The notes under the pieces: model-generated
Databases searched by the model: none
What the model was told of the DNA's origin: nothing
Seen by the model: only the letters and a program-made list of their open reading frames with translations
DNA from: Nanobdellota archaeon
GTDB lineage: Archaea; Nanobdellota; Nanobdellia; PEZQ01
Direction: 5' to 3'
NCBI GenBank assembly: GCA_018220985.1
Contig: JAAOXS010000005.1
Span: forward strand, 1 to 54,657
Length of the DNA: 54,657 nucleotides
Shown: positions 12,737 to 46,746 of the stretch, one piece after another
Layout of the letters: the number at the start of each line of letters is the position of its first letter
Position numbering within the stretch: the stretch's first letter is position 1
Position numbers and translations under genes: made by a program

Positions 12737-14228
<1,492 letters not shown>

Positions 14229-26503: not shown

Positions 26504-29477
26504 AATTTTTAGTGGTAAAACGCCGTTTAGTGAATGGCTTGGCTTGAGAGCTGATGAAGGGCGTGGCAAGCTGCGATAAGCCCGGTGTAGCTGCATGCAA
26601 GCGTTGATACCGGGATTCCTTAATGCGACTTCGTGAACCTTAGGGTTCGCACCATTCAATTGGTGCAGGAACGCGGTGAATTGAAACATCTTAGTAACCG
26701 CAGGAAGAGAAAACAATTGTGATTCCGTAAATAAGGGTGACTGAAAGCGGACCAGGGCAAAATGAATCTGCAATAGTAATATTGTGGAAATGTGTGGTTT
26801 GGGCCGTGCTAAACATCCAAAAATCTAAGCTTAACTTCTCTGGAAAGAGAGACCTTAGAGGGTGATAGTCCCGTAAGCGCTCGATAATTGGTTGTGGCAT
26901 GGTTCCTGAGTAGCCAGGGTTGAAACTCCTTGGTGAACATGGGAGGCAACAACTCCCAACCCTAAACACTCCTCAAGACCGATAGCGTATTAGTACCGTG
27001 AGGGAAAGTTGAAAAGAACCCGTACAAGGGTGTGAAAAGAGCCTGAAACTAAGCGGCCACAGTAAGACGCGGCATTAAAGCGAAAATTTTACAGGATACT
27101 GTTTAGTTTTCTTGCGGTGTTGCGTCATCCGTTCCGGATAACGGAGCAGGGAGTTTGTGTAAGTGGCAAGACGAACCATCTTTACGTTGGTGTGTCGAAG
27201 CGAAAGCGAAATTGCCCGCAGCATGCGAGGGGCTGGGTGCGAATAGTGCCCGTAGTCACTTGTGCAAGACCCGAAGCGAGTTGATCTACGCCTGGCCAAG
27301 ATGAAGTCCCCTGTCAAGGGGGTGGAGGTCTGAAGAGGTACTGTGTACAAGCGTTCTTCTGAGCTGGGTGTAGGGGTGAAAAGCCAATCGTAACTCGCAA
27401 TAGCTGGTTCCTCGTGAAATAGGCCTTAGTCTAGTCTACGGTGAGATGGCTTGAGGGGTAGAGCGACTGATTTTATGCGACAGGGGTCATGAGACCTCGG
27501 TATGAAGTCAAACTCCGAATACTCAAGTATTTTAGACCCGTGGAAACGGTGCAGGGGGGTAAGCTCCTAGCACGAGAGGGGAACAACCCATACTATGGTT
27601 AAGGTCCCTAATTACTGGTCAAGTGTAAAAGGTAGAAGCGTATCCGACTCCTAAAACAGCCGGGAGGTAGGCTTAGAAGCAGCCATCCTCTAAGGAAAGC
27701 GTAATAGCTCACCGGTCTAGGGCTCGGGTCGTGAAAATGGACGGGACTAAGCCAGTAACCGATACCATAGAACACTCCGAAAGAGTGATTTAGTAACGAG
27801 GCGTCCCGCGCGAGCAGAAGCATGGTCGCAAGGTCATGTGGATCGCCCGGGAATGAGAATCCTGCTAACAGTAGCAGCAAAGCAAGGTGAGAATCCTTGT
27901 CGCCGAATGGGCCAGGGTTCCTCAGCACTGTTCGTCAGCTGAGGGTTAGTCGGTCCTAACGCCACCCTTAACTGGGCGTGGTGGAAGGGGAAACGCGTTG
28001 ATATTCGCGTACCACTATTGTACATGCGGTAACGCAAGCAGTACTGGGTGACACTTCCGGATAAGCCGAACACAGTCATCGCTGTGTCTAACAAGAATAA
28101 GCGTGTAGAGTCTCGTAATGAGGAGAAGCACGTTAAGCTTGGAATAGCCCGTGTATACGGGTTCGGTTGAGTCCTGGAGTCATTGAAAAACCCGTACTGA
28201 AGGATCAGTAGTGTCCGTACCCAGAACCGACACAGGTGCCCTAGCTGAGTAGGCTTAGGCGTGTAAGGGATAACTCGAGGTAAGGGAAATCGGCAAGTTA
28301 GCCCTGTATCTTTGGTATAAGGGGTCCCTGCGGTGGTGTTCGTATGAGCGCGATTGCAGGGGACACTAACAAGGCCGGCTGGACTGTTTAACAAAAACAT
28401 AACTGACTGCTAGCCATAAATGGTGTGTATAGTCAGCGAGTCGTGGCCACTGCCAGTATCTGAAAGCTTGTTTCAACGGGCCAAAGGACTGGTGTAGGCC
28501 GGAGGTATCCGTAACCTTCTTAAGGTAGCGTAATTCCTTGTCATTTAATTGGTGACGTGCATGATGGATTAACTAGGTCGGCGCTGTCCCTACCCGAGAC
28601 CTTGTGAATATTCTTTCCTGGTGTAGAGGCCAGGGACTTCCAGTGGGTTGCGAAGACCCCAGGAGCTTTACTGTAGTCTGTTGTTGCTGTACGCGTAGTG
28701 TTGTGTAGAGTAGGTGGGAGACGTCGATGGAGGGCAGAAATGTTTTCCGGAGTCATTGATGAAACACCACCCTTCACTGTTTGTACAGCTAACCTTTAGA
28801 GGGACAGCGATTGATGGGCAGTTTGGCTGGGGTGGTACGCCCGCGAAAAAATATCACGGGCGCCTAATGGTTACCTCATCCGGTTTAGAACTCCGGAGTT
28901 GAGTGCAATGGCAAAAGGTAGCCTTACCGGAAACCGAAAAATAAGGTTTGCGGTCTCGAAAGAGAGGCATAGCGATCCTCACTGCTCTTTTGTTGAGAGC
29001 GTGAGACGGCAGAAAAGTTACCCTGGGGATAACAGGCTTGTCGCGCTCGAGCGTTCATAGCGACGGCGCGGCTTGGTACCTCGATGTCGGCTCTTCCTAT
29101 CCTGGCGGTGCATAAGCTGCCAAGGGTGCAGGTGTCCACTGATTAAAAGGGATCGTGAGCTGGGTTCAGAACGTCGTGAGCCAGTTCTGTTGTTAACTAC
29201 TGGAAGCGTTTGGCGCTTGAGTGGAAGCAAGCATTAGTACGAGAGGAACATGCTTGCGTGGCCTCTGGTTTACCAGTCATCCGACAGGGTGCCGCTGGGC
29301 AGCTACGCCATAATTGGGATAAGAGCTGAAAGCATCTAAGCTCGAAGCCTTCCGCAAGACGAAGCGCCATTATTAGGTTCCCCGTAGAACACGGGTTTGA
29401 TAGAGTTGGGGTGTAAGCACCAAGGTAACGAGGTGTTCAGCCCGCGACCACTAAGAGACCGAACCGCTAAAATTTTA
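26504..29477 (+). rRNA. rrl: 23S ribosomal RNA
   Basis: Full-length archaeal 23S. The 5' region has GAATGGCTTGGCTTGAGAGC and GGCAAGCTGCGATAAGCC; the 3' region has the sarcin-ricin loop AGTACGAGAGGAAC at 29236-29249. Helix 1 pairs AATTTTTAGTGGT (about 26504-26516) with ACCGCTAAAATTTT near 29463-29476, which sets the ends to within a few bases. It has its own promoter and is not linked to 16S (about 12 kb apart) or to any visible 5S gene. No intron was noticed by eye. Confidence 0.96.
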
Positions 29478-31014: not shown

Positions 31015-31524
31015 ATGAAAAAGGGAGGGTTTGCTAAAGTTAAGACTGTTAAAGTACCTGAAAAAAAAATTGTTTCAAACGAAGTTCGTACGGACGTTGA
31101 CCGTGTTGTTGACTTAGTTGGTGCAAGCCATAATAATAAATTATCTTTGAGAAAGATTAAGAATAAGTTGAATTTGCCTTTTGAAGTTGTTGAGAAGTGG
31201 GCGAAAATTCTTGATGAAAATAATGTTTTAGAATTGGTTTATCCTAAGAATCCTTTTATTGGAGCTTTTTTGAAAGTTAAAAAAGTGAAGTATGTTGAAA
31301 CAGGAAAAGAGGTTGGTAAAGTTTTGAAGAAAAAATTGGAGGGAAATAGTATTGGTAAAGAAAAAGAAGGTGAGTTTGAAAAAGGAAGTGGCGGAGATAA
31401 AAAAGAAAGCGGAGAACGAATTATTAGAAAAAGCAGAATTGAACGCGGAGAAAAACGTAGCGCAAAAAATCGTGTCGCCATTATTAAAAAAGGAAAAACT
31501 CGCAAAGTTAGAAAAACAAAATAA
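31015..31524 (+). CDS. Winged-helix-like protein upstream of the pilus ATPase (frame-shifted part of it?)
   Basis: 169 residues as read. Residues ~25-85 (VDRVVDLVGASHNNKLSLRKIKNKLNLPFEVVEKWAKILDENNVLELVY) have the pattern of a winged-helix domain and NPFIGAFLKVKK follows. From ~residue 105 the sequence becomes a Lys/Glu/Gly/Arg mixture. In the overlapping +1 frame (open from 31328), the same bases encode a more natural Lys/Glu helix leading straight into the type IV pilus ATPase. The reading frame of the C-terminal third is therefore probably an artefact, and the wHTH could really be the N-terminus of the ATPase protein, joined by a frameshift, or a separate overlapping gene. Confidence 0.55.
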   Translation: MKKGGFAKVKTVKVPEKKIVSNEVRTDVDRVVDLVGASHNNKLSLRKIKNKLNLPFEVVEKWAKILDENNVLELVYPKNPFIGAFLKVKKVKYVETGKEVGKVLKKKLEGNSIGKEKEGEFEKGSGGDKKESGERIIRKSRIERGEKRSAKNRVAIIKKGKTRKVRKTK

Positions 31525-33010
31525 GTATTCATGGGAATGTGATGGCGTACCAGTTAGTGTAGTTATAGCAAAGCATGATAAGGAATTCGTACCAATTTAC
31601 GAGTTACGAACACCAAAAATTGGTGTTGGAACTCGCGCGCTTCTTAAAAACATTAAGGAAAACGTGATTGCCAGTTACGAGTTCGGTGACGCTGACATGC
31701 TTGACATTAGTAAGATGCGTAAGTTAAAAATTATTTTTTCAAAAAAAATTTTTGAAATAATTTCAACTGAAATTCCCACGATTAAGGATGAGAATAAAAA
31801 AATTTTATCAGGTATTCTCGTGCAAGAAATGCTCGGTCTTGGAATTATCGAGTTCTTAATTGATGATGCACAATTAGAGGAGATAGTTGTTAATAATGCT
31901 ACTGAAAACATTTGGGTTTACCATAAGTCTTTTGGTTGGTTGAAAACCAATGTTAAATTAACTGATGAGAATGAAATTTATAATTTCGCCCAAAAAATTG
32001 GTCGTGTTGTTGGTAAGGAAATAACCACTCTTAATCCTTTGATGGACGCGCATTTAGTTACTGGTGACCGTGTTAATGCTTCTTTATTTCCAATTTCCAC
32101 AAAGGGCGGGACGCTCACTATTAGAAAGTTTAGAAGACAGCCGTGGACTATTACTGATTTAATTGAGAAGGGCAGTCTTAGTTATGAGGTTGCAGCTTTT
32201 ATTTGGATTTGCATGGAGTACGAAATTTCTTTAATTGTTTCTGGTGGAACTGCAAGTGGTAAGACTTCTTTTCTCGGTTCAATTCTTCCTTTTATTCCTC
32301 CAACTCAAAGAGTTATATCAATTGAGGATACTCGTGAGATCCAATTACCCAAGTTTCTGCATTGGGTACCTTTAACAACTAGAACGCCTAACCCTGAAGG
32401 TAAGGGTGGTGTGACAATGCTGGACTTGCTTGTTAATTCTTTACGTATGCGTCCAGATAGAATTGTTGTTGGCGAGATTAGGCGTCAAAAGGAAGCGCAA
32501 GTCCTTTTTGAAGCAATGCATACAGGCCATAGTGTTTACGCTACTGTTCACGCTGATACGGCTGAGCAAACAACACGCAGGTTAACTTCGCCGCCAATTG
32601 ATTTGCCTGTTGAAGAAATTGAAACGCTTCCATTAATTATTGTTATGTATCGTCATAGGCGTAAGAAAGTAAGAAGGTTGTTTCAAGTTGCTGAGCTTGT
32701 TGGTTCCAGACAAGGTGAGGATGAAGTAAGTATTAATGAAATTTTTAAGTGGGATCCTATTGATGATATTATCAAATCTGAGAATAATAGTATTAGAATT
32801 GTTAATGAATTAAGATTGCATAGTGGCATGGATGAATCAGATTTGAAGCAGGAGATTAAGCGTCGTGTTGAAATTTTGCAATGGATTGTTTCAAATGATT
32901 TACGAACAGTTGATGAGGTTGGTAGAATTGTAAGCGAGTTCTATTATGATAAGGAGAAAGTTTACTCTCTTATAAAGAAGAAAGTTAAGCCTAGTGAATT
33001 ATTAAAATGA
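31352..33010 (+). CDS. Archaeal type IV pilus/archaellum-type secretion ATPase (GspE/FlaI family)
   Basis: 552 residues from a TTG start. The core begins about residue 57. Walker A GGTASGKTS at about 297, Asp box ISIEDTREIQLP, Walker B DRIVVGEIRR and His box TVHADTAEQTTRRL mark the GspE/FlaI hexameric ATPases that power pili, archaella and type II-like secretion. The next two genes encode the TadC/FlaJ membrane platform. The TTG start lies 173 nt inside the preceding frame. Frame 2 is open from 31328, so there is no ATG before the core; this favours an upstream join with the wHTH reading frame. The end overlaps the next start (ATGA, 33007). Confidence 0.9.
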   Translation: MVKKKKVSLKKEVAEIKKKAENELLEKAELNAEKNVAQKIVSPLLKKEKLAKLEKQNKYSWECDGVPVSVVIAKHDKEFVPIYELRTPKIGVGTRALLKNIKENVIASYEFGDADMLDISKMRKLKIIFSKKIFEIISTEIPTIKDENKKILSGILVQEMLGLGIIEFLIDDAQLEEIVVNNATENIWVYHKSFGWLKTNVKLTDENEIYNFAQKIGRVVGKEITTLNPLMDAHLVTGDRVNASLFPISTKGGTLTIRKFRRQPWTITDLIEKGSLSYEVAAFIWICMEYEISLIVSGGTASGKTSFLGSILPFIPPTQRVISIEDTREIQLPKFLHWVPLTTRTPNPEGKGGVTMLDLLVNSLRMRPDRIVVGEIRRQKEAQVLFEAMHTGHSVYATVHADTAEQTTRRLTSPPIDLPVEEIETLPLIIVMYRHRRKKVRRLFQVAELVGSRQGEDEVSINEIFKWDPIDDIIKSENNSIRIVNELRLHSGMDESDLKQEIKRRVEILQWIVSNDLRTVDEVGRIVSEFYYDKEKVYSLIKKKVKPSELLK

Positions 33011-33888
33011 AAACAGTGCCGTTATCATTAGCACCACCTCCCCTGCTTAAATTTTTAGCTCCTCAGTTTAAAGGTTTGGCGAGGATTTTATTGTCTTTTT
33101 TTCCGGGTTTGGAGCTTGAATTAAAGCAGGCGGGTATGCGTTTTTCAGCAGAGGAGTATATGAGTTATTTGTTTGTAGCTTTTATTTTTAATTTGTTCAC
33201 TTTCACGTTTTTATTTTATTTTATTTTTGTTGGTTTAATGCAGCCGCCTAACATTAATTTGTGGTTGGTTAGTAGTTTAGGAATTTTAATGTTCACGTTA
33301 TTCATGCAAGTTAATTATCCTAAGTACACTATTATGAAGCGCGCTAAAGAAATTGACAAGACTTTATTGTTCGCTTTGAGGAATTTGCAGATTCGTCTTA
33401 AGTCAGGTATTCCTTTATACAAAGCTATGAAAGGTGTTGGTAAGCAGGATTTTGGAATTGTTAGTCAGGAGTTTAAGAAAACAGTTAATGAAATTGAAGG
33501 TGGCGTGCCTCAAGTAACTGCAATTGAGAGAATGGCTTTTCGTAATCCGTCAAAATATTTTCAGAGGGTTGCTTGGCAGATAGCTAATGGTTTGAAAGCT
33601 GGCGCGTCTATTGAGAAGAGTATTGATTCCATTACCAAAAACTTGGCTAAAGATCAGTTAATAACAATTAAGAATTATGGTGCTAAATTGAATCCTCTTG
33701 CTATGATGTACATGATGGTTGCTGTTATTATTCCAACTCTTGGCGTGACTTTTCTAATCATTCTCGGCTCGTTTTTTGGTATGGGTATTGATGAAAACGT
33801 GTTTTATTTGATTGCTGGTTTTTTAGCTGTTTTCCAGTTCATGTTTATGGGCATTATTAAAACTAATCGTCCGGTGATAGAGTTATGA
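33007..33888 (+). CDS. TadC/FlaJ-type (T2SSF) pilus membrane platform protein 1
   Basis: 293 residues. A T2SSF domain with LLFALRNLQIRLKSGIPLYKAM (helical bundle) around residue 125 and KYFQRVAWQIANGLKAGASI around 195, flanked by membrane helices near residues 58-90, and 225-290. It is the inner-membrane platform to which the ATPase binds. Joined by ATGA overlaps to the ATPase before and the second platform gene after, it is part of a compact three-gene pilus core. Confidence 0.85.
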   Translation: MKTVPLSLAPPPLLKFLAPQFKGLARILLSFFPGLELELKQAGMRFSAEEYMSYLFVAFIFNLFTFTFLFYFIFVGLMQPPNINLWLVSSLGILMFTLFMQVNYPKYTIMKRAKEIDKTLLFALRNLQIRLKSGIPLYKAMKGVGKQDFGIVSQEFKKTVNEIEGGVPQVTAIERMAFRNPSKYFQRVAWQIANGLKAGASIEKSIDSITKNLAKDQLITIKNYGAKLNPLAMMYMMVAVIIPTLGVTFLIILGSFFGMGIDENVFYLIAGFLAVFQFMFMGIIKTNRPVIEL

Positions 33889-34868
33889 AAAATCGTTATA
33901 GTTTTTACGAAAAGGTAGGTAGAACTTTTCCGAGGGGCGTTAAAAAAAGTATTTGTTCTATGATGGTTTATGCTGATATTAAAGTTGATGAAGAAGCGTG
34001 GCTTGGTTTCACAACCGTTTTTACGAGTTTGCTTTTTCTCGCTGTTTCATTGCTTTCTTTTGTAATAACTCGTGATTTTTTAGTTTCTTTTTTGTCAGGT
34101 GTTGTTTTAAGTGGTTTTTTTGTTTTAGTTCCTCATTTACTTATTAGTTTAAAAAGTGATAAGAGGGTTGATTTTGTGGAGAAAGTTTTGCCCGATGCTT
34201 TGTTATTAATCGTTTCTAACATTAGGTCGGGTATTACTCCTGAGAAAGCTTTGGTTCTTAGTGCGAGGGACGAGTTTGGTATTCTTTCTGTTGAGATTAG
34301 GAGTGCGATGAAGCGCACTCTTGCTGGTGAGAATTTTGTTGAAGCTTTAAAACTTATCAGTAAGAATGTTAATTCTAAGGTTTTAAGGCGTGTTGTTAGT
34401 TTGTTAGTGGAGGGTGTGCGTTCTGGTGGTGAGATTGCTAAGTTGTTAGAGGAGTCTGCGTACAATATTCGTTCTAATCAGTTGATGAAGCGTGAGATTC
34501 GTTCAAGTGTTTTGATGTACATTATTTTTTTGTTTGCGGCTATTGGTTTTGCAGCGCCTATTCTTTATGGGATTAGTTCTTATTTAACAACTATTATGAG
34601 TGATTTGTTAGCGGGGATTGATATTCCTGAGGAAGTTTTGCGAACGAGTTTTATTAAATTGTCAAGTTCTTCGATTAGCCCTGAGTTCGTGAATTTTTTC
34701 GCTATTTTCAATTTATCTGTTAGTTGTTTGTTTGGTAGTATGATTATTGGCATGATTGAATCTGGCAGTGCTAAGAAAGGTTTGAAATTCATACTGCCAT
34801 TGTTAGTGTGCAGTCTTGGTTTGTATTTCTTACTACGAAGCGTTTTAAGCACTGCAATAGTTATATAA
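33885..34868 (+). CDS. TadC/FlaJ-type (T2SSF) pilus membrane platform protein 2
   Basis: 327 residues. Same family as the preceding protein: LPDALLLIVSNIRSGITPEKAL about residue 104, RSGGEIAKLLEESAYNIRS about 185, with membrane helices near 40-85, 205-240 and 280-325. Pairs of different TadC-like proteins also occur in Tad pili and in euryarchaeal pilus systems. Coupled to the previous gene by a 4-nt overlap. The next gene, GH3-like, is convergent and its 3' end begins 1 nt after this stop. Confidence 0.85.
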   Translation: MKNRYSFYEKVGRTFPRGVKKSICSMMVYADIKVDEEAWLGFTTVFTSLLFLAVSLLSFVITRDFLVSFLSGVVLSGFFVLVPHLLISLKSDKRVDFVEKVLPDALLLIVSNIRSGITPEKALVLSARDEFGILSVEIRSAMKRTLAGENFVEALKLISKNVNSKVLRRVVSLLVEGVRSGGEIAKLLEESAYNIRSNQLMKREIRSSVLMYIIFLFAAIGFAAPILYGISSYLTTIMSDLLAGIDIPEEVLRTSFIKLSSSSISPEFVNFFAIFNLSVSCLFGSMIIGMIESGSAKKGLKFILPLLVCSLGLYFLLRSVLSTAIVI

Positions 34869-37895: not shown

Positions 37896-38642
37896 TCAAA
37901 ACCATTTCTCGTCTGGAAATATTTTAATCCCTTTTTTAGTGATAGTGTAAGGGTGTATCATTTTAGTGTGGTCTGATTGTCTCATCTTAACTATTTCAAT
38001 TCCTCGTGTGAATTCAGCTCCTTTTTTTTGTTTTCGGTGAAGTGCGATAACAGTGTCAGCTAAGAATTCTATTCCCGCCACGCTAAGAGTGCTAGTGTCA
38101 CCATGCAATCCCATTTCTGAAACAATAATTGATGAGCCTGGAGAGTTACGGAGAACGCTGAACAATTTGTAAAACACGTTTTTAACTTTAAAAATGTCTT
38201 TAATATAGTATTCTATTATTGTTGCTGAATCAATAACAAGTCTTGAAAACCTTTTTTTGCGAAGTAATGGTTCAACTATTTTTAACAAAATTTGCGGATA
38301 GTTAGGATTAATTGATTCAATAATTAGTAAGTTCTTTTTCTCTAAGGATTCTATGTCTAATCCAATTGTTTTAGCGTATTTTCGAATGTCTTCAGCGTTG
38401 TTTTGAGTTGTTATATACAAGCCAGGTTCGCCGTATTTTATCGCACCTTCGTAAAGAAATTGGAGTGCGAATATTGTTTTTCCAGCTCCCGTGTTTCCTG
38501 AAAGCATTACAACACTTCCTGGAACAAATCCCCCATGAGTTACTTCATCCATTCCTGGAACGCCCGTTTTAATTCTTTCACTATTCGTTTTTTTTTCAGG
38601 TTTTGCAATTTTGTTTTCAATTTTTTCTTCAACACTGTTCAT
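37896..38642 (-). CDS. KaiC/FlaH-like ATPase (third in the operon)
   Basis: 248 residues: RIKTGVPGMDEVTHGGFVPGSVV, Walker A GNTGAGKTI (about 51-59), LYITTQNNAEDIRKYAKTIG (switch region, NAED), Walker B SRLVIDSATIIEYY, C-terminus GIEIVKMRQSDHTKMIHPYTI. This last segment is shared with the other long copies in the operon. It contains a complete nucleotide site. Its start overlaps the end of the gene at 38639 (4 nt). Ends 3 nt from the convergent KaiC-like gene. Confidence 0.92.
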   Translation of the reverse strand: MNSVEEKIENKIAKPEKKTNSERIKTGVPGMDEVTHGGFVPGSVVMLSGNTGAGKTIFALQFLYEGAIKYGEPGLYITTQNNAEDIRKYAKTIGLDIESLEKKNLLIIESINPNYPQILLKIVEPLLRKKRFSRLVIDSATIIEYYIKDIFKVKNVFYKLFSVLRNSPGSSIIVSEMGLHGDTSTLSVAGIEFLADTVIALHRKQKKGAEFTRGIEIVKMRQSDHTKMIHPYTITKKGIKIFPDEKWF

Positions 38643-39331
38643 TTTAGTTCAACTCCTTTTCGAGTTATCTTATACGGTACGAATTCTAATAATTTTTCTG
38701 ATTCGGTTTCAAAACCCCTAATTTTAAGGAATTTTCCATCACTTTTTTTTTCAAGTTCGATTGTTGAATCAGTGAGTGATTCAAGAAGTACGTAAATTTT
38801 TTCGTCGTGCATTCCTTGTTCTACAACAAGTAATAATACATCGTTTTTTTCTCTGAATTTGCTTATCACATCTTCTAAAAAGTTTGCTACATCATCAATA
38901 GAGTTGTGAATTATAAGATTTGAAACAGAGTCAATAACGCACCTTAAAGGCTTGTTCAAGTATGCTTTGAATATTTCTGAAAGTGCTACGCTAATATCTG
39001 ATAAATTGCTTTTACCAACTCTAATAATTCCGGATTCTTTCTTTTTTGATGTTGAAGTATATGCGTCAACTATTTTTAAGCCAGTGAATTTTTTTCGAAA
39101 AGTTAATAATTTTTTTTTAATGTTCTCCCCTAAATTGTTAGTCGTAACGTAAACTCCTATTTCATTCTCGTCAGTTGCAATGAAATGTGATGAGAACAAG
39201 CTTTTACCCATTCGAGGCGAGCCTATTAAGAGAACTGATGAGCCTCTTAAAAAGCCACCACTTAGCAATTTATTAAACGCGGGAATTCCAGTGCTAGCTC
39301 GCGTTCTTTTTTTAACAATTTTTTTTTTCAT
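38639..39331 (-). CDS. KaiC/FlaH-like ATPase with diverged Walker A (second in the operon)
   Basis: 230 residues: STGIPAFNKLLSGGFLRGSSVLL, Walker A GSPRMGKSL (about 33-41), Walker B CVIDSVSN (about 121). The switch Glu seen in the other copies (VYITTEQ-like) is Thr-Asn here (YVTTNNLGEN), so ATPase activity may be reduced, as in FlaH where hydrolysis is weak. Overlaps the neighbouring genes by 4 nt on both sides. It may be a non-hydrolysing partner in a mixed hexamer with the first and third copies; that is inference. Confidence 0.9.
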   Translation of the reverse strand: MKKKIVKKRTRASTGIPAFNKLLSGGFLRGSSVLLIGSPRMGKSLFSSHFIATDENEIGVYVTTNNLGENIKKKLLTFRKKFTGLKIVDAYTSTSKKKESGIIRVGKSNLSDISVALSEIFKAYLNKPLRCVIDSVSNLIIHNSIDDVANFLEDVISKFREKNDVLLLVVEQGMHDEKIYVLLESLTDSTIELEKKSDGKFLKIRGFETESEKLLEFVPYKITRKGVELK

Positions 39332-40152
39332 ATTTTTCTAACAATGATTCCTTTATTTGTTATTTCAAAAGGGTATATTTTATTACTATGGTCTGTTCTC
39401 CGCATTTTTCTAACCATCAGTGCTCTTTTGAATTTAGCGGCGATTCCAATAAATTGAAGTGAGATTATTCCATCAACCATGAATTCTATAACTCCAAAAC
39501 GGCTTAATCCTTTACTTTCTTCAAGTATTTCAGCTGTAAAAAGAGTTACGATATCCATGTCTTTAAGGATTTTGTAAACTGAAAAAAGTTTTCTTCGCGT
39601 TTCAAAAACGTCATCAAAAAAGAGTGAGAACATGCTTGTTGAATCAATAACAACGCGTTTAGCATTTATTTCTTCAATTTTTTGTTTTACGAGATAAGGT
39701 AGTTGGCGAACGTTTCCAGGGTCTATTTCTATTATTGATAATTTTTTTTCATCCATTAGTTTATGAAAATCCCATCCGAAACTCGTAAGCATATCATCCG
39801 CAATGTCGTCAGCTCTCTGCTCTGTTGTTATGTAAACCCCGTTCTCACCATGGTCAATAATTCCTTTGTAAAGGAATTGGGCGGAAACTATTGTTTTTGA
39901 ACTGCCTGTTTTTCCAGTTACGAGAACAACAGAGTGAGGTAAGAATCCACCACCCATTAATTCATCTAATCCTGGAATTCCAGATTTAATTCTACGAGAT
40001 AATTCCACTCTACGATTTTTCACGTTTTGTTTAATTGGTTTTTTTTGTTTTTTCTCAATTTTTTTAGGTTTAACTTTTTTTGAGTTAACAAGTTTAACAA
40101 CTTCTTCAACTTCTTTTTTCTTATTCTCTTTGCTTAAAAAATTTAAACGCAT
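39328..40152 (-). CDS. KaiC/FlaH-like ATPase with basic N-terminal extension (first in the operon)
   Basis: 274 residues. About 50 residues of Lys/Glu-rich extension (KKKEVEEVVKLVNSKKVKPK) precede RIKSGIPGLDELMGGGFLPHSVV, Walker A GKTGSSKTI (about 82-90), switch VYITTEQRADDIADDM, Walker B RVVIDSTSMF, and the ending FKRALMVRKMRRTDHSNKIYPFEI. The basic extension could contact the acidic membrane or a partner tail. It lies 9 nt after the 1030-residue membrane protein gene on the same strand, so it is the first of three KaiC-like genes in one transcript with the receptors. Confidence 0.92.
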   Translation of the reverse strand: MRLNFLSKENKKKEVEEVVKLVNSKKVKPKKIEKKQKKPIKQNVKNRRVELSRRIKSGIPGLDELMGGGFLPHSVVLVTGKTGSSKTIVSAQFLYKGIIDHGENGVYITTEQRADDIADDMLTSFGWDFHKLMDEKKLSIIEIDPGNVRQLPYLVKQKIEEINAKRVVIDSTSMFSLFFDDVFETRRKLFSVYKILKDMDIVTLFTAEILEESKGLSRFGVIEFMVDGIISLQFIGIAAKFKRALMVRKMRRTDHSNKIYPFEITNKGIIVRKI

Positions 40153-40161
40153 AAATTTAAT

Positions 40162-43100
40162 TCACTCCACTCTTCTTATTTGTCTTCTTTCTTTTTTACT
40201 CTTTCCTTTTTTTGTTCCTAATTTTTCTTTTAAATCTTTAATTCTTGATTGTATTCCAACAAGGTTTCCTTCATATTTTCTCATTAAATTCATGTAAGTT
40301 TCTTCATCAATTTTTCTTTCAAAGTATTTTTTTTGAGTTGCGTTAAGCATTTCATTCAAGTGCGATTCTTTTGAATTCCAATGCTTTAATAATGATTTGT
40401 TAATGAGTTTTGAACCAATAACTTTGTAAAAAACGAATAAGGTTCCTCCAAATAAAATCATGATTATCAGTATTTGCAATGGTGACAGCGTAAAACCGGC
40501 TTTTTCAATGAATAATGTTGTGAGAACTGTTCCAGTATTCCCATCAGGATCTATTATTGTAATAAGCGCACCCCAAGTCCCCGAGTTGTTAAATAATATC
40601 GTGTACGCCCCTTCATAAGTTCCCTCTTCTGTTTCGTAAAGATATATTAAATCATTATTTGGGGATTTTATAGTGGCGTTCGCAAAATTAACATTTGAAC
40701 CGTCAGGATAGTTTGCAGCTATTACGAAAAGAATTGTTTCACCTTGAATAAAAGTTGTTTGAACTGGTTTTAATAATTTTGGCGTAATCGTTAAAGGCAG
40801 TACTCCAAGAGTTGTGAATTCACCGCCACCCTTAAGAGCTCCGAATAATTCTTTTCTCACTTCCACCATTAAATTAAAATCCCCTAAACTTGCGTCACTT
40901 GGAACTTCATAAATTCCTTCATATATTCCTGTTTGCTTTTCTAAAAGTTGTATTTTTACGCCTTCAGAAGTTATCGCTGTAACATTTGCACCACTAACTA
41001 TTTCATCCTCTTTTAAAACTTCAATGCTAATCATTATTTCCTGTCCCCTGGTAAAAATTGAACCACGAATAGGGCTGTTAAATTTAATGTCAAAGTAAGA
41101 GAATTTTGAGGGCAGGGATATTTCTCTTTCAATAGTTTGTGAAATATTGTTTCCAGCTAAGTCCTGAGCATTGACTTGAATATTCCATTTCCCAAACGGG
41201 TCTGCGAAAGTTGTTTCGTAAACAAAAACGAAACTTCCTTCAGCGTTTGTTTTGTTCGTATTTGAAACTTGCCAGTTTGAAGTTTCACTATTTAAAATAA
41301 AATTTACAACATAGTTAGCACGCGGGATTCCTTGCAGTGTTGTAAGCGTTCCAAAAATTATTATGTTATCTCCAATTTCGTAAGATATTTCATCAGTTAA
41401 TAATTCAATATTAAGTTTTTTTGAAATGTTAAAAACCAAGTTTTTTCTTCCAATACTTCCATTCTGTTCAGCTGAAATTAGTAATGAGTATTCTCCTAAA
41501 AATCCTGTAGGTGTTAAAATACTTCCATAATAGTATCCTGTTGAAGTATTCTCAGTTAAAGAGTATTCTGTTGATGAGAATCCTGGAAGAAATTTCACGT
41601 CAGCATCGCTGACGGGTTCATTATCTTTATTCACAAGTATTTTAAAAGTTAAATTATCATTAACTGAGCAAATAGTGTTATTATCCGGTTCGTAAACAAT
41701 TATTTGTAATCCTAAACAATCATCAGGGCAGGATGTTGAATTCTCACCTGGAGCTTCGCAAATATTATTAGGGCAACAGTTCGCCGTTATTGCACAAGAG
41801 CAAGAGTAATCAATGCATTGGAATGAAAGGCATGTGCCGCAATTACTTTCACACACTCCACAATCAGCAGGGCAAATGCATTGGTTTTCGCTTGACTCGC
41901 ATACATCATTCCCACAAACAGCTGTACAGTCAGCAGGGCAAATATAAGAATTCTCACCTGGAGCTTCACACACACCATTACCACAACTTGCTGTACAGTC
42001 ATTATCTAAATTAAAGTTGCAAAGAGAGCAGCATAGAGCATCATCATCAACGCAGTAATTTGTTTGTGTGAAAGTGCAATTAGCAGTATCATTTCCAGGA
42101 TTAGTGCAAGTGTCAGTTGTGCAATAATCACTATCATCACAATCATTGTTTGAAAAGCATTCTATTTTAGACTCTGGCGTGGTTTGATATACAATCAAAG
42201 GATTTGATAAGGATTGTCCGATTGCAGTTACGTCTGTTGCACCATTTATTATCATAAAATAATAACTTATAAAATTTGGAGTGTTAGTGGTTACGTTCCA
42301 ACCGTAACGATCGCTTCCATCGAAAATGCTCCAAGACCCACTAACATCATTTTGGTTTAGTACAATCCCATAACCATTATTGTTAGCGTCATCGTGAACT
42401 CCGCGGTAATCATAACCATTTGAACTGCCTGTTGTTGTTGAATCGTCAGTTTCGCTTGAAGCATCGCCTCCTGGCGTTCCTAATCCCAGTATTCTATAAT
42501 TTGCAGCGTTTGGGGAGGAGTATTGTATTTTAATAAAACCACTTAAGTAGTATATGCTAATGTTTTCGTAAACAGTGTATGTTGCGTCAGTTCCCGTTAC
42601 GCGCATTATTTTTCTTACAGCGCCATTCTTTACTAGTTCACTGCTCCAAGCAAGGCTTGCGTGAGTATTATCATCATTCACGTATAATCCTTCTATTCTC
42701 GAGTTTGATACAATATTATTTTTTGATTGGTCTTGGTTTTCTTCAGATTTTATTACGAAATCAATTATTCCTGTGTAAGCATCAGCATTTCCAAGTGCTA
42801 TTTTTAGTTTTGAGTTCTCTATAATGTTATTTCCAGGAGTTATTGAACCCCATGTTAAACTGTAAGAAGGTGATATTTTAGTGTTAGCTTCTGTGTCAAA
42901 ATAAATGTTGTATGTTCTGTTAGTATTAACATCTGTTGTTCCATTAATAACCCAAATTAATTCACCGTACCCATCACCAACAATTCCAACATCATCAAAT
43001 TGGGAGGGTATTTCAACTCTATTTTCTATTATCCTTATTGAATTTTCATCAAAATTTTGGGAGTCGTTTAGTTGGTCTAATAAATTTGTAAAATTTATTA

Positions 43101-43254
43101 ATAGTTCTACTGGCATGTTCTCTCTTACATAATTTCCTGAACTGATGTTAATAGGTAAACGGTATTGCCAAGTGTCATTCCACCAGTCATTTGCTGCTAA
43201 AACACTAGCTGGTAATACAAATAAAATAAGTAGTAAGCTATTTTTTTTTCCCAC
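40162..43254 (-). CDS. Large signal-anchored Ig-like membrane protein with cytoplasmic tail
   Basis: 1030 residues. Signal peptide (SLLLILFVLPASVLA). A DUF2341-like opening (WWNDTWQYRLPINISSGNYV, IRIIENRVEIPSQFDD) leads into a large beta-rich region, then a Cys-rich segment with repeated CGNGVCEAPGEN...CPADC units (about residues 430-545), Ig/macroglobulin-type domains (NSPIRGSIFTRGQEIMISIEV and similar), a membrane helix at about 925-950 (LSPLQILIIMILFGGTLFVF) and a ~75-residue Lys/Arg-rich tail (LLKHWNSKESHLNEML...TQKKYFERKIDEETYMNLMR). The outside part is probably an adhesin or receptor. Its start overlaps the end of the paralogous upstream gene by 17 nt. Confidence 0.85.
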   Translation of the reverse strand: MGKKNSLLLILFVLPASVLAANDWWNDTWQYRLPINISSGNYVRENMPVELLINFTNLLDQLNDSQNFDENSIRIIENRVEIPSQFDDVGIVGDGYGELIWVINGTTDVNTNRTYNIYFDTEANTKISPSYSLTWGSITPGNNIIENSKLKIALGNADAYTGIIDFVIKSEENQDQSKNNIVSNSRIEGLYVNDDNTHASLAWSSELVKNGAVRKIMRVTGTDATYTVYENISIYYLSGFIKIQYSSPNAANYRILGLGTPGGDASSETDDSTTTGSSNGYDYRGVHDDANNNGYGIVLNQNDVSGSWSIFDGSDRYGWNVTTNTPNFISYYFMIINGATDVTAIGQSLSNPLIVYQTTPESKIECFSNNDCDDSDYCTTDTCTNPGNDTANCTFTQTNYCVDDDALCCSLCNFNLDNDCTASCGNGVCEAPGENSYICPADCTAVCGNDVCESSENQCICPADCGVCESNCGTCLSFQCIDYSCSCAITANCCPNNICEAPGENSTSCPDDCLGLQIIVYEPDNNTICSVNDNLTFKILVNKDNEPVSDADVKFLPGFSSTEYSLTENTSTGYYYGSILTPTGFLGEYSLLISAEQNGSIGRKNLVFNISKKLNIELLTDEISYEIGDNIIIFGTLTTLQGIPRANYVVNFILNSETSNWQVSNTNKTNAEGSFVFVYETTFADPFGKWNIQVNAQDLAGNNISQTIEREISLPSKFSYFDIKFNSPIRGSIFTRGQEIMISIEVLKEDEIVSGANVTAITSEGVKIQLLEKQTGIYEGIYEVPSDASLGDFNLMVEVRKELFGALKGGGEFTTLGVLPLTITPKLLKPVQTTFIQGETILFVIAANYPDGSNVNFANATIKSPNNDLIYLYETEEGTYEGAYTILFNNSGTWGALITIIDPDGNTGTVLTTLFIEKAGFTLSPLQILIIMILFGGTLFVFYKVIGSKLINKSLLKHWNSKESHLNEMLNATQKKYFERKIDEETYMNLMRKYEGNLVGIQSRIKDLKEKLGTKKGKSKKERRQIRRVE

Positions 43255-44488
43255 CTTTTTTCCCCCCCTTATTCTTTTTTATTCCTAACTTTTTTTTGAG
43301 TTCTTTGACACTGGTTTGAACGCTTACGAGTTTCGCTTCGTGTTTTCTCATTAATTCCATGTATGTTTCTTCATCGATTACTCTGTCAAAGTATTTTTTT
43401 TGAGTTATGTCTTGCATTCTTTTCAAGTCTTTTTGTTTTGCAGTGTAATGTTTAAGAAGTGTTATTCGCAAAAATTTTGTTCCACCAAAAAAGAAGAAGA
43501 ATACTGAAATGATTATGAAAACAATGGTTGCTAGTATTACTAATGGATGTGTGATAATTGATTGTGTTAGTATTAAAATGTTTTTTTGGATTTCGCCTTT
43601 GTTTCCGTATTCGTCAACAACTGTGAAATGAGCATTCCAAGTGCCTAAAAAATTGTTTGGAATTTTGTAAGAAATGTTGAAATAATCATTAACAGTGTTC
43701 ATTGCTAATTTCCCTTCTGGTGTGTTAATTGTCACGTTCACGTTTAATGCAAGTGTTTTGTCAGGGTAGTGTGATTTTATTTTAAATAAAATTGTTGCGC
43801 CGGGTTTGAAAACGTTTTTTTCAGGTTCAATAATTGTTACATTAATTTTTGCGGGGTTAACATTCAATTTTAGGAATGCTCCTCCTTTTCTAATGCCTTG
43901 AGCTAAGTTTTTTTCAGCGGTGATTCTGATGAGTTTATAATTGTCCTGCGAGTCATATTTTAAATCATAGTTTACAGTGTAAACGCCATTATTTACTTCT
44001 ATAAGGTTTAATTCTTCTTCGTCAATTAACGCGGTTACTTTTGCTCCTGCAATTTTTTCAACACTTCTGAAAACTTCAACGCTAATAGTTATTGTTTCAC
44101 CGCGAGTGTATGTTAGCGTTTGAACTGGTGAATTAAAGTTAACTCCGAAGTATGCGTTCTCACTTGTTAATATTGCAGTTATGTTTTTTTGAGTGGTTAT
44201 GTTTTGTGTTTTAAAATTAATAATCCAATTTCCTGACTGGTCGCTTACTGTGGATTTAAAAATGTATGAATTGTTTTTTTCAAAAAATAGTTGTTTTACG
44301 TAATGCCAATCATCATCAGTTGTTATGATTTCAATTTCCGCGCTTCCTAAAAAATTTGTTTCAGGTGTTATTGTAAAATAATCTCCTAAAATGAATTGTG
44401 TTCCCCCTGTTGAATTCGTAATTGTGAATTCTACAGCGTTAACCGCGCTTATCATGAAGAGCATTGCTAAAAAAACTGTTTTTCGCAT
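43238..44488 (-). CDS. Signal-anchored Ig-like membrane protein, short paralogue of the 1030-residue protein
   Basis: 416 residues: signal peptide (TVFLAMLFMISAVNA), three or so Ig/macroglobulin-like domains (NSPVQTLTYTRGETITISVEV matches NSPIRGSIFTRGQEIMISIEV in the paralogue), a transmembrane helix near 325-348 (LVILATIVFIIISVFFFFFG), and a cytoplasmic tail LLKHYTAKQKDLKRMQDITQ KKYFDRVIDEETYMELMRKHE then Lys-rich. The tail is the same domain as in the 1030-residue protein. First gene of the five-gene minus-strand operon that ends in three KaiC-like ATPases. No DUF2341-like or Cys-rich region here. Confidence 0.85.
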   Translation of the reverse strand: MRKTVFLAMLFMISAVNAVEFTITNSTGGTQFILGDYFTITPETNFLGSAEIEIITTDDDWHYVKQLFFEKNNSYIFKSTVSDQSGNWIINFKTQNITTQKNITAILTSENAYFGVNFNSPVQTLTYTRGETITISVEVFRSVEKIAGAKVTALIDEEELNLIEVNNGVYTVNYDLKYDSQDNYKLIRITAEKNLAQGIRKGGAFLKLNVNPAKINVTIIEPEKNVFKPGATILFKIKSHYPDKTLALNVNVTINTPEGKLAMNTVNDYFNISYKIPNNFLGTWNAHFTVVDEYGNKGEIQKNILILTQSIITHPLVILATIVFIIISVFFFFFGGTKFLRITLLKHYTAKQKDLKRMQDITQKKYFDRVIDEETYMELMRKHEAKLVSVQTSVKELKKKLGIKKNKGGKKGGKKK

Positions 44489-44573: not shown

Positions 44574-46208
44574 ATGGTGCGGGGGCAAGTATCTATTGAG
44601 TATTTTTTTCTTGTGAGCATTATCATGTTAGTCGGTATTGGCGTGGTTTTATCTTATATGAGAATAACTGAAAGCACTATTTCTTCATTTCAAAGTGAGG
44701 CTTCAGTGCAAAAATTGAATGAGGAGATTACACGAGTATTTTACATGAGATATCCTGCTACGCGAACTGTGCGTTTAGAAATTCCTAATAACGTGATTAG
44801 TAATAGAACTTTTATTGCTAATAATACTATTCAAATTAGTTATTATGATAATGGAATTGTTGACGTTTTTGAAAGTCTTGATTTTAATGTTTCAGGATAC
44901 ATCCCTAACAAACCTGGAGTTTATTGGCTTAAATTGTTCTCAGATATTAATAACACGCTTCAAGTTATGGTCATAGATTTTGATGTTTATCCTGATAATA
45001 TTGCGCTTTACTTACCTAAGTTCGGTGAAAAAGAGTATAATATTACTTTAACCAATACGGGTAATCAAACAATTAGTGTTAGTGCGTTAACTGAGAATCT
45101 TGATTACTTAGTTGATCTTGACGCGTCCACAAGGTATATTGATACTTCACTTAATTTAGGAAGCATTGTTAAAGGTGGTCATAAAACTTTTGAAATTCGT
45201 GTTAGTGCAAATAAAGGCGTTGGAAATTATTATGGAACTATTTTTCTCAAAAGCGATAATGTTGAAATCAATATTCCTATTGCAGTTGGTATTCGTAATC
45301 GAATTTTTCCAGTGAATACAACAATTATTCCTCTGGACAGTAATCAAGTTGATGTTTTGAAAGCTTATGGTTTTGCTTATGATTTATTAAGTCAAGAAAT
45401 TCCTGTTGGTTGGGTTATGAACAATATTACGATTAACACAACTGAGTTAGGAAGTTATGATTATGAGGGTAGTGTTTTCGTAATTGATAGTTTGGATGTT
45501 GATTGGATCATTTCAGAAGCTGCTTCTTGGGGTGTTACAATTCATCATTTAAACCAATCTCTTAATGGTGATTTCGTAACTTGGCTTGCTTTCGCTCCGA
45601 GAGTTGCTGTTCATTCAAGTGGGAAGTATTGGGTTGTCACTAGTACGCTTAACATGTCTGGAATACCCTATGATTGGGTTGATGGTAATACCATTCTAAA
45701 CAGTGGTTTAGCAGGTTATGATGTTTTACTAGTAGGGCATTATGATTTTGAGTTTAATTCTCCGAATCCTGAAGGTGAAACTAGTAAAATAGAAGAGTTC
45801 GTTGTTAATGGAGGTTATTTGCATGCGGAGTGCGTTTCAATAACGAGCTATGAGAAATATCAGAATTCTACTGGTGTTACTTCTTCAAGAAGCATTTTTG
45901 GAGGGGATTATTTGGAAATGTTCGAGTCTGAGAATCCTTTAACTCAAACATGGGGTGTACCTAAGGATATTGGCGGTACTGTTTCTGGTTTGAACGTGTC
46001 TAATGCTAATGTTACTGTGTTAAGTGATGATAATTATGGTTTCCATAAGTTCGTGTATTCCTCACATGGTGAGGGCTATATTTCTTATTTTGCAGGTCAC
46101 TTAGGTGATAGTGTTGACATAAATGTTTCACGTATGCGATTGCTTAATAACGTGGTTTTGTTCACTTCCGCTGAAAAAGGTAAAACCGGCCCGTTACCAC
46201 AAATTTAA
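44574..46208 (+). CDS. Surface protein with archaeal class III (pilin-type) signal peptide
   Basis: 544 residues. The N-terminus MVRGQVSIEYFFLVSIIMLVG is a class III signal peptide: short basic leader, cleavage after Gly (RG|QVSIEY), then the hydrophobic helix used for pilus-subunit assembly. Beta-rich external domains follow: NEW3/CARDB-like (NITLTNTGNQTISVSALTEN; FEIRVSANKGVGNYYG), then a Gly/His-containing globular domain with LVGHYDFEFN and EEFVVNGGYLHAECV. Such pilin-like adhesins are processed by FlaK/EppA-type peptidases and may be assembled by the pilus ATPase/TadC pair at 31-35 kb. It is divergent from the receptor/KaiC operon (85 nt between starts). Confidence 0.85.
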   Translation: MVRGQVSIEYFFLVSIIMLVGIGVVLSYMRITESTISSFQSEASVQKLNEEITRVFYMRYPATRTVRLEIPNNVISNRTFIANNTIQISYYDNGIVDVFESLDFNVSGYIPNKPGVYWLKLFSDINNTLQVMVIDFDVYPDNIALYLPKFGEKEYNITLTNTGNQTISVSALTENLDYLVDLDASTRYIDTSLNLGSIVKGGHKTFEIRVSANKGVGNYYGTIFLKSDNVEINIPIAVGIRNRIFPVNTTIIPLDSNQVDVLKAYGFAYDLLSQEIPVGWVMNNITINTTELGSYDYEGSVFVIDSLDVDWIISEAASWGVTIHHLNQSLNGDFVTWLAFAPRVAVHSSGKYWVVTSTLNMSGIPYDWVDGNTILNSGLAGYDVLLVGHYDFEFNSPNPEGETSKIEEFVVNGGYLHAECVSITSYEKYQNSTGVTSSRSIFGGDYLEMFESENPLTQTWGVPKDIGGTVSGLNVSNANVTVLSDDNYGFHKFVYSSHGEGYISYFAGHLGDSVDINVSRMRLLNNVVLFTSAEKGKTGPLPQI

Positions 46209-46407: not shown

Positions 46408-46746
46408 GTTGTGGGTGGGAGCGCAGTTATCGCTTCTTTTAATTTGAAGTGAGGAAGGTCCACACTCCAGTTCGTGACAACCTAAGTGATTAGGAACTTT
46501 GAGAAAGGTTGGTTTAACAGAGCAGAAACGATTAACCATTTGAACCTGATATTGATGATGGTTTGTTATTGTGGGTGAAACGGCTGTTACCTTGTTTGGT
46601 GCAAGTCCGCTCAAGAATTCAGTTTATGATTAGTGAATTCGGAGAGCTTTAATGAGACGCTTAGACGAATACTGCGAACACTGTCGAAGACCCCGTTTTC
46701 GCGGGTGAGGGTGGTAACAAAAAGTGGACTACTCCCCAACCACAAC
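46408..46746 (+). ncRNA. rnpB: RNase P RNA
   Basis: Conserved region I is TGAGGAAGGTCCACACTCC (about 46450-46468; consensus GAGGAAAGTCC). A GTGAAACGG element is near 46573, and the 3' conserved region reads ACAAAAAGTGGACTAC (about 46717-46732; consensus ACAGAAxxxGGCTTA). P1 is formed by GGTTGTGG at the 5' end and CCACAAC at the 3' end. The RNA processes tRNA 5' ends. Length is about 339 nt, in the archaeal range. Domain details such as P8 or P15-17 were not traced. Confidence 0.9.

Follow-up and report, generated by a model that had tools for sequence, protein, structure and literature searches.

Hairpin-tailed surface proteins recurrently encoded beside KaiC-like ATPases in Nanobdellota: candidate receptors for a KaiC signalling hub in archaea

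The stretch of DNA analysed here (the window; 54,657 nucleotides (nt), contig JAAOXS010000005.1 of assembly GCA_018220985.1, G000:C15) belongs to a Nanobdellota archaeon with a genome of 661,534 bases (83.6% complete), and encodes archaeal 16S and 23S rRNA and archaeal RNase P; the size of the genome and its relatives suggest a DPANN lineage. At positions 37896–44488 five genes abut or overlap on the minus strand, coding for two membrane proteins of 416 and 1030 amino acids (aa) and then the KaiC-like ATPases P0003, P0002 and P0001, with successive junctions of a 17-nt overlap, a 9-nt gap and two 4-nt overlaps. An earlier reading made from the letters alone (the sequence-only reading) had described this five-gene operon, and its layout was exact in coordinates, strands, gaps and overlaps. 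The features, with one transmembrane (TM) helix in each tailed protein and with macroglobulin abbreviated to MG, are as follows.

43238–44488, minus: short tailed membrane protein, 416 aa, predicted from sequence and model to have three beta-sandwich domains of macroglobulin/Ig-like type between its signal peptide and a single TM helix, and a helical hairpin at the C-terminus
43274–43567, minus: TM helix and hairpin tail of the 416-aa protein, residues 308–405 (profile match E=1.6e-34, the profile being built partly from this tail)
40162–43254, minus: large tailed membrane protein, 1030 aa, GTG start, which begins with a signal peptide and a beta-rich domain, ends in a TM helix and hairpin tail, and has Cys-rich repeats and MG/Ig-like domains between
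41134–41382, minus: MG2-like domain of the 1030-aa protein, residues 625–707 (PF01835 E=1.4e-5, 25.8 bits, under the cut-off of 32.8)
40207–40503, minus: TM helix and hairpin tail of the 1030-aa protein, residues 918–1016 (profile match E=2.9e-37, the profile again built partly from this tail)
39328–40152, minus: KaiC-like ATPase P0003, 274 aa, with a basic N-terminal extension of about 45 residues
38639–39331, minus: divergent KaiC-like P0002, 230 aa
37896–38642, minus: KaiC-like P0001, 248 aa
37254–37892, plus: fourth KaiC-like gene P0006, 212 aa, convergent, 3 nt separating the two stop codons
36485–37171, minus: multi-TM protein P0007, HisKA_7TM-like without a kinase domain, of uncertain membership in the unit

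The overlap of the two membrane protein genes (43238–43265) carries a G7 run and A-rich runs (ggggggga aaaaagg) and might be prone to slippage or sensitive to assembly. A scan for sigma-70-type promoters, a consensus type not suited to archaea, gave matches below chance.

The two membrane proteins are paralogous, with 36% identity over residues 65–411 of the shorter (about 350 residues), and both end in a basic tail of about 85 residues (24–25 Lys/Arg against 9–11 Asp/Glu). They had been described as signal-anchored Ig-like proteins with a common tail; the tail is indeed common to both, but the likeness reaches beyond it and the domains look macroglobulin-like rather than simply Ig-like. The AlphaFold2 model of the 416-aa protein, computed from an alignment of two rows only (mean predicted local distance difference test score, pLDDT, 67), shows three beta-sandwiches followed by a helix (315–367), a turn (368–372) and a second helix (373–400), an arrangement in which the TM helix continues into a helical hairpin. 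For the full-length 1030-aa protein the model (mean pLDDT 34) is usable only in its C-terminal TM/hairpin helices (925–978 and 984–1011). Foldseek matched the outer domains of the 416-aa model to complement and macroglobulin folds (TM-scores of about 0.24 over the whole model), and the Pfam MG2 gathering score of 32.8 was missed by the 1030-aa protein and by two relatives (27.7 and 26.5 bits). What the window proteins share with the MG domains of alpha-2-macroglobulin and complement, namely a predicted ectodomain fold and a weak MG2 match, is the domain type alone, and no thioester domain or protease-trap architecture was seen in them. The first 600 residues of the larger protein, Cys-rich repeats included, have been assigned no fold. 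Both proteins are predicted to lie at the cell surface with the hairpin on the inner side of the membrane.

The tail defines a family of its own. A first profile made from seven tails found relatives in 47 of the 280 genomes of the class, and a refined profile of 23 rows found them in 93 of 371 genomes of the phylum, many with E below 1e-20; the conserved core reads L..L..E...L..L.k..Q..YF....Is...Y.....Y...L..I...i..L, and no Pfam, NCBIfam or PDB match worth keeping identified the hairpin tail as a known domain. The common layout is a giant protein (about 1,000–3,500 aa, often with two tandem hairpins) adjoining a short one (about 300–500 aa, one hairpin), the two genes often overlapping by 4 nt; the window's pair deviates from this in having one hairpin in each protein. 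Ectodomains vary among family members and include MG/Ig-like domains, LamG lectin-like repeats and RCC1 propeller repeats. A constant inner tail combined with exchangeable outer parts is a pattern that, at the level of sequence, would suit receptors or adhesins with a common inner partner. One tailed surface protein (L130:8243-13756) carries strong RCC1 beta-propeller repeats (PF25390 E 5e-139), which is unusual for an archaeal surface protein.

The sequence-only reading had suggested an envelope sensor or adhesin whose tail would dock a mixed KaiC-like ring, and had named conservation of the tail and KaiC neighbourhood among its tests. The pairing does recur, which supports the membrane proteins and KaiC-like ATPases as a functional unit, with the tail as its conserved part and the ectodomains varying. 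Among 33 held-out loci, picked by tail score only from genomes or contigs not inspected before, a strong KaiC (E below 1e-20) lay within 6 kb of the tail in 22, where about 1–3 were expected (P~6e-15 at a base rate of 0.10, set deliberately high); several of the misses were at a contig edge, and two were second contigs of genomes with a positive partner locus. In the first set, also picked by tail alone, a KaiC was found within 10 kb in 14 of 21 loci. The pairing, which recurs in about 55 loci, is not due to chance. In these 55 positive loci the nearest tail–KaiC gap is 150 bp or less in 36 and often between -3 and 60 bp, and both genes share a strand in 37; neither gene order nor orientation is fixed from locus to locus. 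A search for relatives with P0003 gave 14 loci, mostly with distant KaiCs, one of which (L189, Candidatus Aenigmatarchaeota) contains both partners, the tail gene 55 bp before the KaiC gene.

Tails and KaiCs have also diversified together. On a tree of 63 KaiC domains, in which the non-tail rows were taken by similarity to P0003 in relatives so that the contrast is not a census, tail-linked KaiCs clustered with 4 label changes versus 18.4 for shuffled labels (0 of 500 shuffles as low). The nearest kin of P0003 are tail-linked KaiCs of two other families (support 100/94 for a wider set of five), and P0002 and P0006 group tentatively, on long branches, with divergent KaiCs that come from three further tail loci (98/97). 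Tail and KaiC distances are correlated (Mantel r=0.43, 0/2000), a correlation partly explicable by species phylogeny. Species phylogeny is nevertheless insufficient to account for the matching, because genome G402 contains two systems that keep different matched kin, L157 pairing with L121/L108 and L156 with L115/L119 for both KaiC and tail.

All four KaiC-like proteins exceeded the Pfam KaiC cut-off (PF06745, 26.6 bits), with 203 bits for P0003, 180 for P0001, 80 for P0002 and 63 for P0006, bearing out the count of three in the operon and a fourth beside it; they are the only genes of the genome above that cut-off, and all lie within one 5-kb stretch. Their active sites differ in the motifs that serve ATP turnover in a ring (Walker A, the catalytic Glu pair and the K-x-R finger). 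P0003 has a Walker A motif with Gly changed to Ser (GKTGSSKT), and retains the catalytic Glu (TTEQ) and the KMR finger; P0001 (GNTGAGKT) has Gln in place of the first catalytic Glu (TTQN) and keeps the KMR finger; P0002 keeps Walker A (GSPRMGKS), has the catalytic Glu replaced (TTNN) and lacks the KMR finger; and P0006 keeps Walker A without a KMR finger. Across relatives, three features are almost constant in the main KaiC, namely a Walker A resembling GGPGSGKT, two adjacent Glu residues (Glu-Glu) and the K-x-R finger, and a second class consists of KaiC relatives of about 170 aa without Walker A or the Glu pair, which match DUF7504. P0002 likewise matches DUF7504, together with DUF7090 and, under threshold, DUF835. 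Domains like this second class, DUF835 among them, have been called iKaiC, and iKaiC-REC fusions have been reported (PMC5847659). Most relatives of the window's locus encode a single active KaiC, in many cases accompanied by a KaiC relative that lacks Walker A, not three intact paralogues, and the window, as judged from its motifs, holds graded, partly degenerate subunits and not one active and one dead protein. The N-terminal extensions of the KaiCs, inspected for a common docking motif, were variable and of low complexity.

The label 'FlaH-like' given to these ATPases is not supported. Their scores against the NCBIfam ArlH model (38, 31, 57 and 29 bits) are far under its cut-off of 215 bits, on which an ArlH/FlaH identity was rejected, and they are closer to the KaiC_arch_3 and cyanobacterial KaiC models. 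The NCBIfam circ_KaiC cut-off (546 bits) was likewise missed (137.5 bits at most), the window proteins being single domains and not two fused KaiC domains. They resemble ArlH/FlaH of the archaellum as single-domain KaiC-like ATPases beside a membrane apparatus, and differ from it, besides the score, in that association with an archaellum or pilus motor is not conserved. By profile the single-domain archaeal KaiC structures PH0186 (2zts), PH0284 (2dr3) and SSO2452 (2w0m), whose database names are merely uncharacterised or by locus, belong to the same ATPase family, and we know of no membrane partner for any of them. An anti-phage defence system was considered and rejected, PADLOC matches being marginal (E 2e-4 to 5e-4) and to NTPase regions shared with the models.

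Other genes recur around the pairing. The 55 positive loci include a histidine kinase (HK) in 13, a response regulator receiver (REC) gene in 16, an extra divergent KaiC in 24, a MinD-like ATPase in 6 and a pilus-type ATPase in 4. Across the relatives KaiC genes are found linked to inactivated KaiC and two-component genes, the combination that marks a KaiC hub. In the window's genome the HK-REC pair (L194, G000:C17, 3–2376) comprises its single REC and its best HATPase match, a second, weaker HATPase_c match being on C7; next to the pair, on the opposite strand, comes a gene whose product resembles CheC by eye. A family of multi-TM proteins of about 195 aa recurs in 12 tail loci (e.g. L111:14561-15148), often adjoining the short tailed protein, and one member scores just over the cut-off of PF09819 (ABC-type cobalt transport permease component). 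The lone seven-TM protein flanking the operon, P0007, is not supported as a conserved part of the system; it is not homologous to this family, is also unlike the multi-TM protein of L059, and scores 24.2 bits against HisKA_7TM, under the gathering score of 28.6.

We favour the reading that the locus provides a KaiC signalling hub of archaea with its surface module, a receptor or an adhesin resembling one, and give it somewhat better than an even chance. The two tailed proteins would be exported and anchored by one TM helix each, with exchangeable beta-domains outside whose target, sensed or bound, might for example be a glycan, the envelope or a neighbouring cell, and the cytoplasmic helical hairpin would be the conserved output element engaging the co-encoded KaiC-family ATPases. 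Binding or clustering of the ectodomains might rearrange the hairpins and, with the signal running inward, alter a KaiC ring, mixed or otherwise, in its nucleotide state, its assembly or its choice of partners; the divergent paralogues with altered catalytic residues could serve as adaptors or as regulatory subunits. An HK/response regulator pair or a MinD-like ATPase may receive the output in many relatives. In ArlH, itself KaiC-like, phosphorylation alters hexamer state and partner binding (PMC8978795), and switching of this type is a plausible model, by analogy, for the KaiCs here. A more specific architecture, which we advance tentatively and consider rather unlikely, is a modular family of giant and short receptors that would bind, through one to three cytoplasmic hairpins, to a KaiC hexamer in which some subunits are catalytically dead, so that contact outside (e.g. 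with a host or partner cell) would switch the KaiC nucleotide state. If true, it would be an undescribed transmembrane signalling architecture of small-genome archaea, with a role in effect comparable to that of chemoreceptor arrays or receptor kinases.

The strongest rival holds that the KaiC ring is an ATP-driven organiser which, together with MinD-like ATPases, positions, clusters or holds large surface proteins and is not a signalling hub. A MinD/ParA-like gene does lie between two tail genes, abutting or overlapping them, in three loci (L149:4995-5807, L151:9871-10629, L152:9470-10273), and three more loci (L129, L059, L068) have one close to their tail and KaiC genes; the giant LamG or RCC1 ectodomains suit adhesion, and the frequent allotment of two hairpins to the large protein and one to its short partner also fits. 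Yet MinD-like genes occur in only 6 of the 55 loci, against the higher counts of HK, REC and divergent KaiC genes, which better fit signalling, and none was seen in the window's locus; we rate the organiser as unlikely, if still a serious contender. A type IV pilus-type operon on the plus strand, 3 kb from the KaiC genes (31352–34868), contains an ATPase (31352–33010; 317 bits against the archaellum FlaI cut-off of 550) and two TadC-like membrane proteins, and the KaiCs might act on that ATPase in an ArlH-like manner with the tailed proteins as accessory surface parts. The nearness of these genes and of a protein with a class-III-like signal (44574), the confinement of the genome's KaiCs to this one stretch and the description of KaiC genes near archaeal pilus loci (PMC4858521) are in favour of such a pilus regulator, which is nonetheless distinctly improbable: a pilus-type ATPase accompanies tail and KaiC in only 4 of 55 loci, the window KaiCs miss the ArlH cut-off, and the pilus genes form a separate operon on the opposite strand. 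The locus as a part of the nearby pilus was rejected on the same lack of conserved linkage. That KaiC and surface-protein genes are mere neighbours in accessory regions, with no joint function, is disfavoured and very hard to credit; the distribution is patchy and gene order and strand vary, but the held-out linkage with its short gaps, the clustering of tail-linked KaiC subfamilies and the matched divergence within one genome all run counter to it.

Several observations weigh against the receptor-module reading itself. Gene linkage is no proof of tail–KaiC contact, and the hairpin of the 416-aa model is low in confidence (pLDDT about 43–58). About one third of tail loci have no nearby KaiC, many of them, but not all, at contig ends, and genome G001, of the same family and 99% complete, has KaiCs and no tail protein, making the system patchy. 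The window genome's HK-REC pair is on another contig, unlinked to the divergent KaiCs of the window. An excess of response regulators around tail genes (one within 12 kb in 28 of 71 cases, versus 1.9 expected) speaks for the reading, but most genomes in that test were chosen after some such neighbours had been seen.

KaiC-like ATPases have expanded in archaea; Makarova, Galperin and Koonin reportedly proposed KaiC-like signal transduction hubs in 2017. Many members of the present archaeal group depend on contact with other cells. Hubs containing inactivated KaiC and two-component parts are an existing proposal (PMC5847659; PMC6393860), and the locus resembles them in its KaiC-family ATPases, inactivated KaiC relatives and links to two-component parts; it differs, as judged from papers citing the 2017 original and not from that original, in that the constant partner is a receptor-like membrane family with a conserved hairpin tail. 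KaiC and MinD/FleN ATPases have also been described as encoded with surface structures, the archaeal type IV pili (PMC4858521), whereas the gene that stays constant beside KaiC in the present loci codes for a tailed surface protein and not for a secretion ATPase/TadC pair. No description of the tailed receptor family as a KaiC partner was found in the open literature, the founding 2017 hub paper and most subscription journals being outside this search. The earlier statement that no described system of this composition was known agrees with this search for the tailed receptor partner, and not for the KaiC hubs, which had been predicted before. Receptor-like proteins that recur beside KaiC and keep the same inner tail are a concrete candidate input to KaiC hubs, and the pairing points to an undescribed route by which these archaea may pass outside contact or signals inward; the hairpin-tail profile lets cognate KaiC/receptor pairs be listed across thousands of genomes.

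Beyond the operon, and divergent from it across an 85-bp spacer, a plus-strand gene (44574–46208) encodes a 544-aa protein with a class-III (pilin-like) signal sequence and only a weak DUF11 match, possibly a minor pilin or tip protein. The archaeal RNase P RNA lies beside the locus (46411–46743, plus). The 16S (12737–14228, plus) and 23S (26506–29473, plus) rRNA genes are about 12 kb apart on the same strand and do not form a joint rRNA operon.

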